From: an uncultured Ignavibacteria bacterium
GTDB taxonomy: Bacteria > Bacteroidota > Ignavibacteria > Tepidaquicellales > OLB5
Assembly (NCBI GenBank): GCA_937873695.1
Contig: CALMYL010000020.1
Location: 62,001-126,000, forward strand
Direction: 5' to 3'
DNA length: 64,000 bases
Shown: piece by piece, positions 1 to 41,119 of the stretch
How positions within the stretch are numbered: position 1 is the stretch's first letter
How the letters are laid out: the number at the start of each line of letters is the position of its first letter
Made by a program: the position numbers and the translations under genes
Notes under the pieces: generated by a model
What the model was told of the DNA's origin: nothing
Databases searched by the model: none
The model's input: only the letters and a program-made list of their open reading frames with translations

Positions 1-2066
1 AAATTGGGACTTGAGTTTTCACCGACTGTTATTTCAACAAGCTTTGATGTGCCTTCAATTTTTTCTACTGTGTAGGTTAAAATATTATCATTCTGCGTAG
101 TGATAAGCACATTAGCGCCCGGTGTTGTTGTGACAATAAGCGCTTTGCATATCTCGCCGGGTTTATAGCTGTCTTTATCGGGGAAGATCTGCACTGTGCC
201 TGATTCATTGTACCACCACCACATATCCCCTTTGGAAACGTAGCAGTAAGTATTATCGGTGACTTTTTTACCGCGACTATCGTAGGAATTTATTTCGATT
301 GAATAGTACCCTTCGCCAGCGGCATCAAAGCTAACATTACCGATACCTTTATCATTTGTGCTGCCTTTTACGGTTGTAACATAATCTTTGCTCTGTTTGT
401 AATCAGGGTAGCCTGTCCATGTAAGCCTGTTAACAACAGCTTCAAAGTTAACCTGTTTTGGTTTTTCGGCAAAATCCATTGCACGTACTTCAACATTTAT
501 CTTTTCATCAGGTTTATACATGTACTTATCAACTTTTGATGTCATGAAGAAATCTGACCTGGTAACATAAACTGTCTTGGTCGAAGAAATTTCTCTTCTT
601 GATTTATCGGTTACCTTAGCCTGAATGATATACATATAGTCAGTTTCATATGTAGCATTTCTATCCCAATACCACCAGCTATTGTATTTGGATTTAAAGT
701 CCTCTTTCACCAGGTAATCGAAGTCAAACCTGCCTTCTTTATCAAGCTTACCTTTTCCGCTGAAGATAAAATCAGCGTTGTTATATTTCTGGTTATCATC
801 CTGTGTTGCGTAATAATCTTCATACCACCATTTATACTCACTGAAGTACCACCATGGTTTGTAAAATGTCTGCTTGTACACATTATACTCAACTTCAGCA
901 TCCTGAACGGGTGAGCCGAAATAATAATCGGCGTTTACAACGCCCTTAATGCTCTCGCTATCTAAGTACTGATCTTTATCAAGTGTAATGCCTACTTTGT
1001 ACTCAGGTTTTTTGTATTCTTCAACGGCAAAGGTGCCTGTGTACTGCTGACCCTTTTCAAGCTCAGCGTAAATATAATAATCACCCAGCGCAGCGTTCTC
1101 TTCAATTTCGTATGAACCTGAAAAACTTCCGTTGGAATTTGTTCTTAACACCTGTTTGGAAACTTCCGCACCGCGAGAGTCTTTAATACGCACGGTTAGA
1201 TCTTTTTCGGGGTAATTCTCAAATCCCGTGTTATTTGCTTTACGTATAACGCCTTTGAACTCAACAATTGATTTGGGTCTGTACACAGGCTGGCTTGGAT
1301 AAATATAAACACTGTACATATTCGCGCCATAACCAAAATACAGGTACGGATCAGATACGGCGATATCATCGCCTTTTCTGCCGATAATTAGCGGGTAAGC
1401 AACATTGTTTGCAGCAGCATAGTCTCTATCTTCCTGGTTCACATCCTTATAGAACAAACCGCGCATTGTTTTACCAACTCCAATTTTTCTTTGTCCCATA
1501 AAGAATGAAAGGTCAACATCGCTCAAAGGCTCACCAGATTTTCTATCAACAGTATATGCCAATAGCGCGTTGTTTGATGCCTCTGTAATTGTACCAATAT
1601 CGGTAACAAAGAAGCCTGTATAGGCTACTTTATTTTTGTAAGCCACTCTTACAACAAACGCACCTTTTTGTTTTGGTTTGTACGTGATGGTTTCATAGCT
1701 GTAATAATAATCGTTATCGCCTTCAACCTTCATGCGTTTATTAAAGCTGTCGACTTCATCGCATAAGCCGAGTAGATTTAAGCTGTCTTTGCTTAAAACA
1801 TCTATCTGATAATTGGAGGTCTGCCTTGAAAAAAATCCTTCAATATCATTTATTTTATAAATTTTAAAATTGAACTCCGCGTTTTTGCGCAGGTAGTAAG
1901 CATAGACATTTATAGTAACCTCATCACCTGAGGCGTACATATTATTGCTGTAAACACTGTACGACATATTGAAATCATCATTATCATTCTGTGAAAATGA
2001 TATTGATGGGATCATTATTGCCAGAAGCACGGCAAGCAGCATAATTTTTTTCGTGATATTTCTCAT
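1..2066 (-). CDS. Alpha-2-macroglobulin-like secreted protein (N-terminal 688 residues, runs off window)
   Basis: The frame is open from an ATG at 2066 to the window edge, so only the N-terminal part is visible. It begins with a Sec signal peptide (hydrophobic core about residues 7-22, ending SISFSQ). A run of beta-sandwich domains follows. Near residue 258 there is the MG2-type signature YRPKSIVEFKGVIRK, and further on repeated macroglobulin-like segments (YKPDEKINVEVRAMDF, DSYKPGEICKALIV). Bacterial members of the family are periplasmic or surface protease traps. The thioester and receptor-binding parts would lie beyond the window, so it cannot be said whether this copy is thioester-active. 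A good ribosome site, AAGGAG, lies about 8 bases before the ATG. It is divergent from the ABC-F gene across about 160 bp. Confidence 0.85.
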   Translation of the reverse strand, partial: MRNITKKIMLLAVLLAIMIPSISFSQNDNDDFNMSYSVYSNNMYASGDEVTINVYAYYLRKNAEFNFKIYKINDIEGFFSRQTSNYQIDVLSKDSLNLLGLCDEVDSFNKRMKVEGDNDYYYSYETITYKPKQKGAFVVRVAYKNKVAYTGFFVTDIGTITEASNNALLAYTVDRKSGEPLSDVDLSFFMGQRKIGVGKTMRGLFYKDVNQEDRDYAAANNVAYPLIIGRKGDDIAVSDPYLYFGYGANMYSVYIYPSQPVYRPKSIVEFKGVIRKANNTGFENYPEKDLTVRIKDSRGAEVSKQVLRTNSNGSFSGSYEIEENAALGDYYIYAELEKGQQYTGTFAVEEYKKPEYKVGITLDKDQYLDSESIKGVVNADYYFGSPVQDAEVEYNVYKQTFYKPWWYFSEYKWWYEDYYATQDDNQKYNNADFIFSGKGKLDKEGRFDFDYLVKEDFKSKYNSWWYWDRNATYETDYMYIIQAKVTDKSRREISSTKTVYVTRSDFFMTSKVDKYMYKPDEKINVEVRAMDFAEKPKQVNFEAVVNRLTWTGYPDYKQSKDYVTTVKGSTNDKGIGNVSFDAAGEGYYSIEINSYDSRGKKVTDNTYCYVSKGDMWWWYNESGTVQIFPDKDSYKPGEICKALIVTTTPGANVLITTQNDNILTYTVEKIEGTSKLVEITVGENSSPN

Positions 2067-2224
2067 GGTAATTCTCCTTTAGAAACCTGATTTGTAAAGC
2101 TGATAACTTTGTTTTTTTGAACTTTCTTACTTATTTATATGTAAAATAATGTAATTTGTTCCCATAAATGTGAGAAAAATAAGTTTACTGAAAGTTAAAA
2201 GTATTAAAGCTAAATTGCCGGAAT

Positions 2225-32650: not shown

Positions 32651-32765
32651 CGCAGAGTCCTCTCCGAGAGACTCTGCCGGGACTGTAAAAAGAGACTCTG
32701 TGGAAACTTGTAAATTCTACACTACAGTTTCCGTCTTCGCAGAGTCTCCTGAAAGGGACTCTGCG
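32651..32765. repeat. REP hairpins on the left of the RAYT gene
   Basis: Two hairpins with arms GCAGAGTC / GACTCTGC: one at 32651-32679 (with a bulged base in the left arm) and one at 32738-32765. A half-copy AGAGACTCTG lies at about 32691. The facing copy on the other side of the transposase gene is at 33356-33387. Confidence 0.8.
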
Positions 32766-32771
32766 ATTAAA

Positions 32772-33332
32772 TCATAGTTCCATATAATGAGTAACCTTAT
32801 ATCCATTATAATTGTCTAATTCATAAAATCCCGCACTGGAATGTTCATACTCCCTGTAATCTTCTACTAACTTCCATTTTCCCCGAACCGGATTTTGATG
32901 TATGTAATTCAATTTCTGGACTATGAACTTTTCACTAACGATTATTTTTGCATCAAAAGAAGGTTCGAAAACATTGTGTTTTTTGCCTTTGGCAATCTCA
33001 CTTGTATTTAAAGATCCGGAAAGTTCATCAAGTAATTCCAGATTTCTCTCCTTAGTTAACCGTTTAACAATTTCATAAGCCATAAATCTTTTACAATTTG
33101 CAATGATTTTATTGATATTTAATTCGGTACCTGGTAGATAAATTAGGGCATGGAAATGATTTGGCATTATGACAAAACCGGTTACCTTAATACTATTTCT
33201 ATTAAGATAATCAAACCAATCATAAATGTGGTCATGTAATTTTGTAATTTCAAATAAGTGTATCCATTTGAAACATGTTACTGTACAAAAATAAACATTA
33301 TTATTATTTGTGAGAGTTTTTCTTACACTCAC
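32772..33332 (-). CDS. REP-associated tyrosine transposase (RAYT, IS200-like Y1 family)
   Basis: 186 residues. The HUH motif is GFVIMPNHFHALIYLPG (H59, H61) and the candidate catalytic tyrosine is in KLNYIHQNPVRGKW. The spacing and the YEHSSAGFY tail are those of TnpA-REP proteins. Members nick and rejoin single-stranded REP hairpins. It is bounded on both sides by hairpins with arms GCAGAGTC / GACTCTGC, and further copies lie at 34159-34187 and 40996-41022. It looks intact and possibly active. Confidence 0.88.
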   Translation of the reverse strand: MSVRKTLTNNNNVYFCTVTCFKWIHLFEITKLHDHIYDWFDYLNRNSIKVTGFVIMPNHFHALIYLPGTELNINKIIANCKRFMAYEIVKRLTKERNLELLDELSGSLNTSEIAKGKKHNVFEPSFDAKIIVSEKFIVQKLNYIHQNPVRGKWKLVEDYREYEHSSAGFYELDNYNGYKVTHYMEL

Positions 33333-33355
33333 TTATCATTGTATTCATTATTTTG

Positions 33356-33387
33356 CCGCAGAGTCCTCTTTCAGAGAGACTCTGCGG
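33356..33387. repeat. REP hairpin on the right of the RAYT gene
   Basis: CCGCAGAGTC / GACTCTGCGG arms around an inner CTCT...AGAGA stem, the longest copy of the family, 24 bases upstream of the transposase start. Confidence 0.82.
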
Positions 33388-33409
33388 AAACACTGGCGAT
33401 AATTTTGTA

Positions 33410-34024: not shown

Positions 34025-34158
34025 ATAATATGTTTTATTTTTAGTTTTCTATAAACCTTTGAAATGGTTCTACAATTTTCTATTTATACTTTACCCACGA
34101 CTGAAGCCGGGGGCTAATTTTTTCAATTAGAATGCTTACACTACTAGTACAGTATAGT

Positions 34159-34212
34159 CGCAGAGTCCTCTTCGAGAGACTCTGCGGAGACGAAGCACTG
34201 ACACAGTCAGTG
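34159..34212. repeat. Composite REP: two adjacent hairpins
   Basis: First hairpin 34159-34187 with GCAGAGTC / GACTCTGC arms, then a second, CACTGAC-ACA-GTCAGTG, at 34196-34212. The same ordered pair occurs at 40996-41104. Confidence 0.75.
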
Positions 34213-34227
34213 AACTCCAAAGAAATA

Positions 34228-37723: not shown

Positions 37724-38782
37724 TTAGGAATACAGTTTCTTTTTGAGCCAGAAGGCTGCGTTGACGAGTAGAATTAATGCGGGGACTTCGACTAACGGAC
37801 CGATAACACCTGCAAATGCCTGGGGACTCGATATGCCGAATACTCCTATGCTCACAGCAATAGCGAGCTCGAAGTTATTGCCTGCGGCGGTAAATGAGAG
37901 TGCTGCGTTTTGAGAATAATCAGCTCCAAGCCACTTTCCAACAAGGAAAGTAATGAAGAACATAATTACGAAATAAATCAGTAATGGAATCGCAATTCTT
38001 ACAACATCCATTGGGATATTTACGATCATTTCACCTTTTAAGCTGAACATCGCAACAATTGTGAATAACAGAGCAATTAAAGTTATGGGACTAATCCTGG
38101 GAATAAACTTACTTTCATACCACTCCTTGCCTTTTAGCTTGATCAGTAAATAACGGCTTAAAAATCCAGCAATAAAAGGAATACCGAGATAGATGAAAAC
38201 ACTTTGCGCAATTTCTGCAATGCTTATGTTGACCTCGAGTCCCGTTACCCCGAAATACGGGGGAAGTATTGTAATGAATATCCACGCAAATAAACTATAG
38301 AATAACACCTGGAAAATGCTGTTGAAAGCTACGAGTCCCGCGGCATATTCACGGCTGCCATTTGCAAGCTCATTCCACACAATCACCATTGCAATACAAC
38401 GTGCAAGACCTATCATAATCAAACCGACCATGTAACCCGGCATATCACTAAGGAATGTAATGGCAAGAATGAACATTAGCACGGGTCCGATGACCCAGTT
38501 CATGACTAAAGAGAGACCCAGAATTTTGAAGTTCCGGAATATCTTACCAAGTTCTTCGTATTTCACCTTTGCAAGCGGCGGGTACATCATTAATATTAAT
38601 CCTATGGCAATGGGTATGTTTGTTGTACCTGAAGAGAATGAATTGATAAAATCAGCGGTGCCCTGGATAAAATATCCCAGTGCAACGCCGATACCCATTG
38701 CGATGAAGATCCATAAGGTCAGAAATCTATCGAGGAAGCTTAAATGTTTTCGTTCTGCTGGAGAGCAGTTTGTGGCTGACAT
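37724..38782 (-). CDS. acr3: Arsenite efflux transporter Acr3
   Basis: 352 residues with about 10 membrane segments. The start [22 protein letters not shown] is the Acr3 hallmark, and the conserved essential cysteine is in [18 protein letters not shown]. The C-terminal [14 protein letters not shown] motif is also typical. It exports arsenite across the inner membrane. Last gene of the arsC-arsR-arsM-acr3 run, separated from arsM by a repeat-filled gap of about 140 bp. Confidence 0.94.
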
Positions 38783-38790
38783 AGTTTTCC

Positions 38791-38920
38791 TTTATCCCTC
38801 ACCCCCAATCCCCTCTCCCATAGGGAGAGGGGTGCGATAATTCAGAGTTATTGGCTCTCTCTCTACTTTCAGGAGAGGGAGTTGGTCCAAAGGACTCCTT
38901 CGGAGAGGGTGAGGTCAAAT
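38791..38920. repeat. Composite GC-rich repeat between arsM and acr3
   Basis: Contains CCCTCACCCCC at the left, the hairpin CCCCTCTCCC-AT-AGGGAGAGGGG, and GAGGGTGAGG at the right, so the ends are inverted. Related to 31228-31267 and 52313-52355. Confidence 0.65.
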
Positions 38921-38924
38921 TAAT

Positions 38925-39866
38925 TTATTTTTCTGCGTAAACTGTGATGCTATATATGCCGCTGCCAGATCTTATAAACTGCTTCGCTTCTTCGATGGTC
39001 ATGTAATCAAGCAGTATCTGGTCGGGAATGGTGATCAGTTTTTCTTTCTGGATAGTAATATTTTTGAATCCCGCATTTTTGACGATCTCAAGGTATTCAT
39101 CTTTCTGCACTGCGCCGGATACACAGCCGGCATACATTGTTGCGGCGGTTTTCATTTTCAAAGGGAGCTCACCTGTTAACACTATATCACTGATTGAAAA
39201 ATGTCCGCCTGGTTTGGTGATCCTGTACACTTCCCTGAAAGCGTTTACCTTGTTGGGTATAAGATTCATAACGCAGTTGCTTACAACTACATCGGCGGTA
39301 TAATCACCAAGAGGCATGTTCTCAATTTCTGCTAAATGGAATTCGACATTTGTGAAACCCAGCTTAGCAGCGTTAACTTTGGCTTTATCAACCATTGCGG
39401 GGGTCATATCAATTCCGATAACACGACCGGTATCCCCTGTTTCAGCCCTGGCTACAAAACAATCATTGCCTGCGCCGGAACCAAGATCAACTACGGTATC
39501 ACCGGCTTTTATGTTTGCGAATTCCGTTGGTAAACCGCAGCCCAGACCAAGATCAGCATCGGGATTGTATCCTTTGAGGTTCTTATACTCATCTGCCATG
39601 ATAGTGTAAGTTGTGTTATCACCGCAGCAAGCCGAAGTTGAACCGCAGCATGAAGATTCGTTTTGCTCTTTTGACTGAAGCGCAATTTGTGAGTACTGCT
39701 CTTTAACGATCTGTTTTAGTTCTTCTTCTGATTTTTCTTTGGTGAGGTCTGTGTTTATGTTGTTGGTCTCAAGACCAACAACGGGGATTTCAACAGTTTC
39801 ATCGCTGCAGCAATCGGGTCCGCAGCAGGATTTTTCTTTTGATTTTGTTTCTTCTAATGTATTCAT
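38925..39866 (-). CDS. arsM: Arsenite methyltransferase ArsM
   Basis: 313 residues. The SAM motif is VVDLGSGAGNDCFVAR; catalytic cysteines are expected in CGLPTEF, NDCFVAR, VSNCVMN and AGCVSG, of the type conserved in ArsM. Before the methyltransferase domain, an N-terminal stretch of about 80 residues carries two doublet-cysteine motifs, C14-C15/C19-C20 (SCCGPDCCS) and C73-C74/C80-C81 (SSCCGSTSACCG). These may pre-bind As(III). ArsM methylates arsenite to mono-, di- and trimethyl arsenicals. Same strand as arsC, arsR and acr3. Confidence 0.93.
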   Translation of the reverse strand: MNTLEETKSKEKSCCGPDCCSDETVEIPVVGLETNNINTDLTKEKSEEELKQIVKEQYSQIALQSKEQNESSCCGSTSACCGDNTTYTIMADEYKNLKGYNPDADLGLGCGLPTEFANIKAGDTVVDLGSGAGNDCFVARAETGDTGRVIGIDMTPAMVDKAKVNAAKLGFTNVEFHLAEIENMPLGDYTADVVVSNCVMNLIPNKVNAFREVYRITKPGGHFSISDIVLTGELPLKMKTAATMYAGCVSGAVQKDEYLEIVKNAGFKNITIQKEKLITIPDQILLDYMTIEEAKQFIRSGSGIYSITVYAEK

Positions 39867-40051
39867 TTATTTATTATATTTTATAATAATTAATTTGTTA
39901 TAGTAACTTCAATTACGGAGAATCCAAAAGCCTTGTCATGCTGCTACGCCTTCTGGAACTTGTTTCAGCATCTGTTGTCATACTCAATTGTCTAAAATTG
40001 TGGATTTATTTAGCAGACCCTGAAACAAGTTCAGGGTGACAATATAATGAC

Positions 40052-40378
40052 TTAACAACAAACCGGTTGTTCTATGTGAGTGAAAGTCGGCTCAAGCATT
40101 TGTTTGAACTTCTTCCATTTTTCGGGATTGAGGCAGTAGCAAATTGAATTGCCTTCAATGTTTCCCTGAATGAGTCCCGCGTTCTTAAGCTCCTTTAAAT
40201 GCTGCGATACTGTAGCTTGCGCAAGCGGAATTGCATCTACTATGCTTCCGCAAATACAACTTGCCTGGCTGCTTAAATATTCAATTATTGCCACACGCGC
40301 AGGGTGCCCCAGCGCTTTGGCAAATGCCGCAAGTTCGTTTTGTTCAGTTGTAAAATTATCTGTTTTAGTGAGTCCCAT
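40052..40378 (-). CDS. arsR: ArsR-family arsenic-responsive repressor
   Basis: 108 residues, a winged-helix ArsR/SmtB domain with recognition helix LAQATVSQHLKELKNAGLI. Cysteines C41 and C43 (SCICGS) lie at the start of the DNA-binding element, where ELCVCDL-type ArsR proteins bind As(III); C80/C82 (ICYC) and the terminal C107/C108 (QPVCC) add further thiols. The protein probably represses the cluster until arsenite binds. It follows arsC and precedes arsM on the same strand. Confidence 0.92.
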   Translation of the reverse strand: MGLTKTDNFTTEQNELAAFAKALGHPARVAIIEYLSSQASCICGSIVDAIPLAQATVSQHLKELKNAGLIQGNIEGNSICYCLNPEKWKKFKQMLEPTFTHIEQPVCC

Positions 40379-40481
40379 ATATCTCCTTATTGTTTTATTG
40401 CAATATTACGATAAAGAAATGCATAAGAAAAGGGATAAATTTATCCCCCCTCAATAACTCATTAATATTTAGAGTACTTAA

Positions 40482-40907
40482 TTAAAGAGCTTTTACCCAT
40501 TGGTCAATTCTTTCTTTTATCTGGTCTCTTACATTTTCTGCAAACAGCAATTTATCTTCATCTCTTCCTTTGAAAGCTGAAGGGTCTGGGAATGACCAGT
40601 GGATTGTTTTGCACACACCTGGAAAGATCGGGCATCTTTCGGCATTTGATTCATCACACACAGTGATTACATAGCTGTAGATCCTGCCCTGCTTATAGAA
40701 CTCAAAAACTTCATCAGTTTTGTTTTGTGAAATATCAATTCCCCACTCTCCCATTGCCTTAACAGCAAAGGGATTGAGGGTGCCGGCTTCAAAGCCGGCG
40801 GATTCCGCCGTGAATTTATCACCGTAATAATAATTCAAAATGGCTTCAGCCATCTGGCTGCGCGCACTGTTATGAATGCAGACGAATAATACTTTAATTT
40901 TATCCAT
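40482..40907 (-). CDS. arsC: Arsenate reductase ArsC (thioredoxin-coupled, LMW-PTP fold)
   Basis: 141 residues. The P-loop is C10-I-H-N-S-A-R16 (CX5R). Two further cysteines lie in [18 protein letters not shown], the redox pair region of the thioredoxin-linked class, and the general acid in HWSFPDPS. It reduces arsenate to arsenite for Acr3 or ArsM. It is the first gene of the arsenic run. Confidence 0.94.
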
Positions 40908-40995
40908 ATATGCAAAAATAAAAATTTATTGTTAGGAAAATGTTAAGGGGTTTGAAGATTGTGTCCCTCGAAGGCGCGAAGGATTTTTTTGTTCT

Positions 40996-41104
40996 CAGAG
41001 TCCCTTTCCGGAGACTCTGCGGAGACGATTAAACCAGAATTACGTAATGCAGGTCAAAAAAAAAAAGAAAACAGTGCATATTCTGCACTGACATAGTCAG
41101 TGCA
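40996..41104. repeat. Composite REP: GCAGAGTC-type half hairpin plus TGCACTGAC hairpin
   Basis: CAGAGTC...GACTCTG at 40996-41022 followed by the perfect hairpin TGCACTGAC-ATA-GTCAGTGCA at 41084-41104. The same pair in the same order occurs at 34159-34212. An A-run lies between. Confidence 0.75.
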
Positions 41105-41119
41105 CTCCCAAAAGCCTAA

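Follow-up and report, generated by a model that had tools for sequence, protein, structure and literature searches.

The Y1/HUH transposase gene RAYT1 and the bulged hairpins of the REP1 family, both found in a 64,000-nucleotide stretch of an Ignavibacteria genome (the window), very probably make up a REP-RAYT system (REPtron), in which the enzyme would move or copy the hairpins in trans. This reading, already that of the original prediction, is supported by the inverted, tagged hairpins on either side of the gene, the dispersed extragenic copies of the hairpin, the RAYT fold predicted for the protein and the hairpins of the same plan beside its orthologs.

The RAYT1 gene and the hairpins of the window

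The open reading frame of RAYT1 (Table 1) is complete, as predicted: its translation contains the HxH motif (H59/H61) and a YIHQNP motif that holds Y143, and the residues H59, H61, Y143 and N147 do not vary among the seven sequences, those of RAYT1 and its six orthologs. The role in RAYTs of the asparagine that follows the catalytic tyrosine is described in PMC6006769 (our statements on this and the other papers cited refer to the accessible portions of their text). RAYT1 falls just below the cut-offs of two family models, NCBIfam REP_Tyr_transpos NF047646 (75.2 bits, cut-off 80) and Pfam Y1_Tnp (21.1, cut-off 23), and has no match at E ≤ 1 to the NCBIfam IS200 transposase model, which three other genes of the same genome match above cut-off. 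Since a phmmer search against the PDB sequences gave only weak matches (4er8, E 0.51), a fold search was run with an AlphaFold2 model (38-row alignment, pLDDT 89.0, pTM 0.85). The top PDB match is 4er8, a RAYT with a REP hairpin (E 2.4e-8, TM 0.59 by query length), and the second is the ISDra2 transposase; judged by the best match, the predicted fold is closest to that of the E. coli RAYT. The genome contains a single copy of RAYT1. A defence-system reading of the locus was rejected, PADLOC giving no match, and so was a phage link, no relative being present in viral_contigs.

Perfect GCAGAGTC...GACTCTGC hairpins occur at four places in the window, and none was found in 100 shuffles. Three of them bracket the gene, in agreement with the original prediction, and RAYT1 sits between two that are inverted with their tags outward. 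Regarding the two further copies that had been predicted, the first is perfect, while the one near position 41,000, with an exact arm at 41013-41020 only, is imperfect. Both are followed by a CACTGAC/GTCAGTG hairpin, as had been noticed; a half copy close to the gene had escaped notice.

Table 1. Features of the window, hairpins beside RAYT1 orthologs, and other RAYT-like genes of the genome (G000).
Feature	Position	Strand	Details
RAYT1, Y1/HUH transposase	32772..33332	-	186 aa, GTG start; H59/H61, Y143, N147
REP1, outer left	32652..32683	-	hairpin 32652-32677; common to relative G011, which is without RAYT1
Half REP1	32692..32707	-	GAGACTCTGTGGAAAC; present in G011 too
REP1, inner left	32733..32764	+	tag GTCTTC 32733-32738, hairpin 32739-32764; tag away from RAYT1
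REP1, inner right	33358..33391	-	hairpin 33358-33385, tag GTTTCC on minus strand 33386-33391; tag away from RAYT1
REP1	34160..34191	-	hairpin 34160-34185, tag GTCTCC on minus strand
REP2	34188..34222	-	hairpin 34196-34212; cognate RAYT elsewhere
REP1, outer stem imperfect	40987..41030	-	covariance-model match including flanks
REP2	41078..41112	-	hairpin 41086-41102
Ortholog hairpin, G032			CCGAGAGTC then T; complementary partner arm
Ortholog hairpin, G033			CGCAGGAGTC then T; complementary partner arm
Ortholog hairpin, G029			GCGGGGAGTC then T; complementary partner arm, save for a single unpaired G
Ortholog hairpin, G030			CCGCAGAGTC then A; complementary partner arm
Ortholog hairpin, G037			GCAGGGTG then A; complementary partner arm
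Ortholog hairpin, L022			GCAGAGTC then T; complementary partner arm
Second RAYT, L113 (G000:C21:160300-164000)	~1730-2104		REP2 hairpins 1461-1479, 2140-2160
RAYT-like gene, L112 (G000:C21:53500-57500)	1542-2222		hairpin GTGTCAGGTT, 3 exact copies
RAYT-like gene, L114 (G000:C24:1-4500)	1098-2056		hairpin GTTGTTGGT
RAYT-like gene, L267 (G000:C30:82500-84900)	852-1629		hairpin CCCAAACT

Two other features of the window may be mentioned. A palindrome at about 34094-34114, CCCACGACTGAAGCCGGGGGC, has similar copies in the relatives G011 and G002 and near an IS200-like gene (L116), and may be a further repeat family. The genes at 37724-40907 are presumably an arsenic-like set (transporter, methyltransferase, ArsR-type regulator and arsenate reductase).

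Anatomy and genomic distribution of REP1

Read on one strand, REP1 begins with a GTYTYC tag and the arm GCAGAGTC; a bulged T comes next, then a short stem with its loop, and finally the arm GACTCTGC. The bulge is visible in DNA folding, at one fixed place, and this, together with the one-sided tag, gives REP1 a direction; copies were oriented by the bulged T.

A genome-wide search for the REP arms (30 contigs, 3.78 Mb in total) bore out the expected dispersal: it found 13 perfect hairpins, against none for a reversed control pattern. A covariance model trained on these 13 detects, at E<1e-7 and with the better strand taken for each, at least 22 sites (150 of 823 candidates scored), nine of which are beyond the training set. 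The dinucleotide GT is present at positions -6,-5 in 20 of the 22 sites listed, versus 3 of 22 at the mirrored positions. The covariance model contains the tag, so the nine added sites are partly selected for it; among the 13 sites found regardless of their flanks, the figures are 11 and 1. REP1 therefore has the conserved, one-sided 5' tag of a REP, with sequences such as GTCTCC, GTCTTC, GTTTCC and similar, and not the canonical GT(A/G)G.

Five of the 22 listed sites lie within 8.4 kb around RAYT1, and 18 are outside open reading frames of at least 120 codons, according to a simple ORF test by which about 26% of random positions are. Like other REPs, REP1 is thus a short imperfect palindrome, dispersed and extragenic. 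The listed sites are mostly single hairpins; single REPs are described as remnants of inverted pairs (PMC3116915). Two copies at G000:C20:5342-5538 (L261) lie 153 bases apart and have identical flanks, which looks like the outcome of a tandem duplication of a stretch that bears a REP. Our literature search, which covered few subscription papers, returned no publication on this hairpin family.

Hairpins beside the orthologs of RAYT1

RAYT1 has six orthologs (42-56% identity). Among 119 genomes, our own included, five others have one; these five belong to the order of our own genome, and G030 among them has a second, shorter copy. A Bacteroidota MAG contig (L022) carries an ortholog at 47%. Hairpins with their tagged ends outward flank all six orthologs on both sides, as aligned by eye. 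They have the same plan as REP1, with stems that differ by compensated changes (Table 1), and further copies lie on other contigs of the L022 genome.

With 6 duplicates set aside, the 36 loci of the comparison set yield 30 distinct further RAYT-like genes, one of them from our own genome; some of the stretches end early at contig ends. In this set, only two genes have GAGTC hairpins beside them, the second G030 copy and a decayed relative from G017; the other 28 have none. The decayed gene (L272, G017:C5:12945-13358) has three stops, and GAGTC-core hairpins still lie on both sides of it.

A stem 7-mer shared by both sides was found at 4 of 5 loci of our own genome, 4 of 5 of the clade and 17 of 24 distant RAYT-like loci; the corresponding mismatched-pair controls gave 0/20, 2/20 and 22/552, and pairs across groups 11/734. 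This test missed L156 and also L113, where compensated bases distinguish one hairpin from the other. Two of the three IS200 loci pass it too, so that RAYT and IS200 are not told apart by it.

REP2 and the other hairpin families of the genome

The CACTGAC hairpin is a separate REP family, REP2, and not part of the RAYT1 system. It has 8 perfect copies, and the family as a whole (GGAGT-GCAYYRAC-TNT-GTYRRTGC, with GGAGT as the tag) has at least 50 matches genome-wide, from 150 scored out of 985 candidates. The stem covaries: across 14 chosen copies, 98.2% of its cells are paired, and in 14 cells both partners have changed, which none of 500 shuffles reached. A different RAYT gene (G000:C21:161966) has REP2 on both sides.

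The original prediction had taken the two hairpin types to be BIME-like composites belonging to RAYT1, since REP1 and REP2 are neighbours in the same orientation twice in the window; moreover, at one such place both are jointly missing from G011 and G005. We consider a single composite element of RAYT1 most improbable and reject it: REP2 lies within about 100 bases of only 2 of the 22 listed REP1 sites, with different spacings, and, besides having a RAYT of its own, it occurs mainly in inverted pairs of its own (counted by eye, the matches listed include about 11 pairs whose tags point outward and one of the opposite kind).

In total, the genome has five RAYT-like genes, each next to its own hairpin family, which makes specificity testable within one cell. 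That each RAYT has one REP family inside a genome is known (PMC6006769). The hairpin GTTGTTGGT also adjoins a RAYT of Chlorobi bacterium OLB5 (L023), and CCCAAACT also adjoins a RAYT in L160.

REP1 in genomes that lack RAYT1

Matches to the REP1 model are found in 30 of the 119 genomes, all in the order of the RAYT1 clade (30/44 inside versus 0/75 outside). All six genomes with the clade have such matches, and so do 24 of the 38 genomes of the order without it. Within the genus, REP1 matches occur in 11 of 12 genomes, including one that consists of two contigs and is 100% complete (G009), while none of the 12 has a RAYT1 ortholog, their best matches to RAYT1 being other RAYTs at no more than 37% identity. 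The absences in relatives are soft, because the survey filters were stricter and the model is biased to the stem of our own genome. With both strands counted, there are 32 matches in G002, 21 in G011 and 31 in our own genome. Genomes of the genus without RAYT1 are thus not poorer in REP1, and copy number does not follow the gene within the genus; between groups, REP1 is confined to the order of the clade. Abundant hairpins in genomes that lack the RAYT had been named in advance as an observation that would count against the system, and this is what we see in part.

The presence of REP1 without the gene speaks against RAYT1 being needed for the upkeep of the hairpins. Many REP1 sites have flanks that are common to relatives (for example, L001 with G011, G005 and G002), which means that those copies are older than the species. 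Because REP1 is mostly single and many sites are common to several species, its population looks old and, at present, slow. Together with the empty RAYT1 site in relatives (next section), the common sites suggest that old repeats outlive a patchily kept gene; with sites common to several species, gene loss or patchy retention is a sufficient explanation.

It may also be that the hairpins are kept for a role in the host (as a terminator, as the end of an mRNA or as a site that a protein binds) and that the RAYT merely lies among them, as would befit intergenic hairpins that last at common sites in genomes without RAYT1. We find this very unlikely: it does not explain the conserved one-sided tag and the bulge, nor why hairpins with compensated stems flank the six orthologs on both sides and none of the 28 other RAYT-like genes, and none of the four perfect hairpins of the window is followed by a T run.

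The RAYT1 site in relatives

The genes that neighbour RAYT1 are syntenic across the genus. In the seven relatives whose fetched stretch contains both neighbours, no RAYT lies between them. The gap of about 780 bases in our own genome holds RAYT1 and three hairpins, and that of G011 (about 117 bases) holds the outer hairpin and the half copy, both common to the window. The gap of G005 (about 120 bases) holds one hairpin, which resembles the left inner REP and is either what a lost RAYT has left behind or a copy that arose independently; that of G010 holds two hairpins whose outer stems are different. An exact-core search found no hairpin in the gaps of G009 (about 220 bases), G002, G008 and G006.

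A gain of RAYT1 in its own lineage and a loss elsewhere are both possible, and because the gene is absent from all 12 genomes of the genus, a recent gain or re-gain is as likely as repeated loss. The ends of the insertion relative to G011 can be aligned in several ways, with either TACAC at each side or a duplication of 12-15 bases that has diverged, and we therefore claim neither a target duplication nor a cleavage site.

The stretch from the left to the right inner REP, present in our own genome and absent from the same site in relatives, is reminiscent of an ordinary insertion sequence of the small IS200/IS605 type that transposes as a whole, in which case the dispersed hairpins would be dead ends or MITE-like derivatives. 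The Y1 fold is indeed common to RAYT1 and the ISDra2 transposase. Such an insertion sequence is nonetheless unlikely, in view of the single copy of RAYT1, of hairpins that are inverted with tags outward on both sides, and of the fact that RAYT1 finds, just under its cut-off, the NCBIfam REP_Tyr_transpos model and not the IS200 model that three other genes match. Besides, gene loss in the relatives would mimic a gain.

Proposed mechanism

In E. coli, TnpAREP binds and cuts only the REP strand, not its complement, cuts at CT dinucleotides beside the REP, and needs both the GTAG tag and the bulge of the stem (PMC8266576). Since REP1 combines a bulge and a polar tag with an enzyme, a reaction of the E. 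coli TnpAREP kind is the likeliest for RAYT1. By analogy, RAYT1 would bind single-stranded REP1, on the strand where the T is bulged and GTYTYC forms the 5' tag, and Y143 would nick and rejoin the DNA beside it. The enzyme may thus move or copy hairpins in trans, an action that would leave extragenic REP1 copies. The tag differs from GTAG, so the cut site should differ too.

Comparison with known systems

With IS200/IS605 elements, RAYT1 shares the Y1 HUH fold and the hairpins on both sides, and it differs from them in its single copy, in the unmatched IS200 model and in the dispersal of lone hairpins. RAYT1 and REP1 resemble the gammaproteobacterial REP-RAYT systems (PMC2817692), including E. 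coli TnpAREP (PMC8266576), in several ways: a single gene lies between two inverted REPs; the copies are dispersed, extragenic and denser near the gene (PMC2817692); the stem has a bulge, with compensated changes beside orthologs; and the predicted HUH fold best matches 4er8. Unlike in these systems, the tag is GTYTYC instead of GT(A/G)G, and the copies, about 22 (at least 22), are few for REPs, which number tens to hundreds. Also, genomes without the gene have about ten times fewer REPs in PMC2817692, whereas REP1 is equally present in close relatives without RAYT1.

TnpAY1 subclass 2.6, mostly from Bacteroidetes, comprises RAYT-like genes flanked by atypical, non-GTAG structures that are copied elsewhere, as for RAYT1 and REP1; the likeness is one of description (PMC6006769). 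CGTC-tagged REPs also come from Chlorobi and Bacteroidetes, among others (PMC3733652), and 11 of the 22 listed REP1 sites (4 of the 13 found regardless of flanks) have CGTC at positions -7 to -4 relative to the hairpin. However, CGTC-tagged stems nearly always start with A-T pairs and those of REP1 do not, REP1 has a bulge unlike them, and in the accessible text of that paper they are reported without a dedicated transposase, whereas REP1 flanks one. That the RAYT1 clade is the dedicated transposase of non-GTAG, CGTC/GTYTYC-tagged REPs, with a guide sequence and a cleavage rule unlike those of the RAYTs tested so far, is a doubtful but conceivable extension.

RAYT1 and REP1 are a good new example, unusual in its recognition tag, of a known class of repeat system in bacteria. 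Most of the orthologs have a compensated variant of the same bulged hairpin to themselves, and other genomes bear the hairpins without the gene. With this material, it can be tested outside the Gammaproteobacteria whether enzyme, stem and tag co-evolve.
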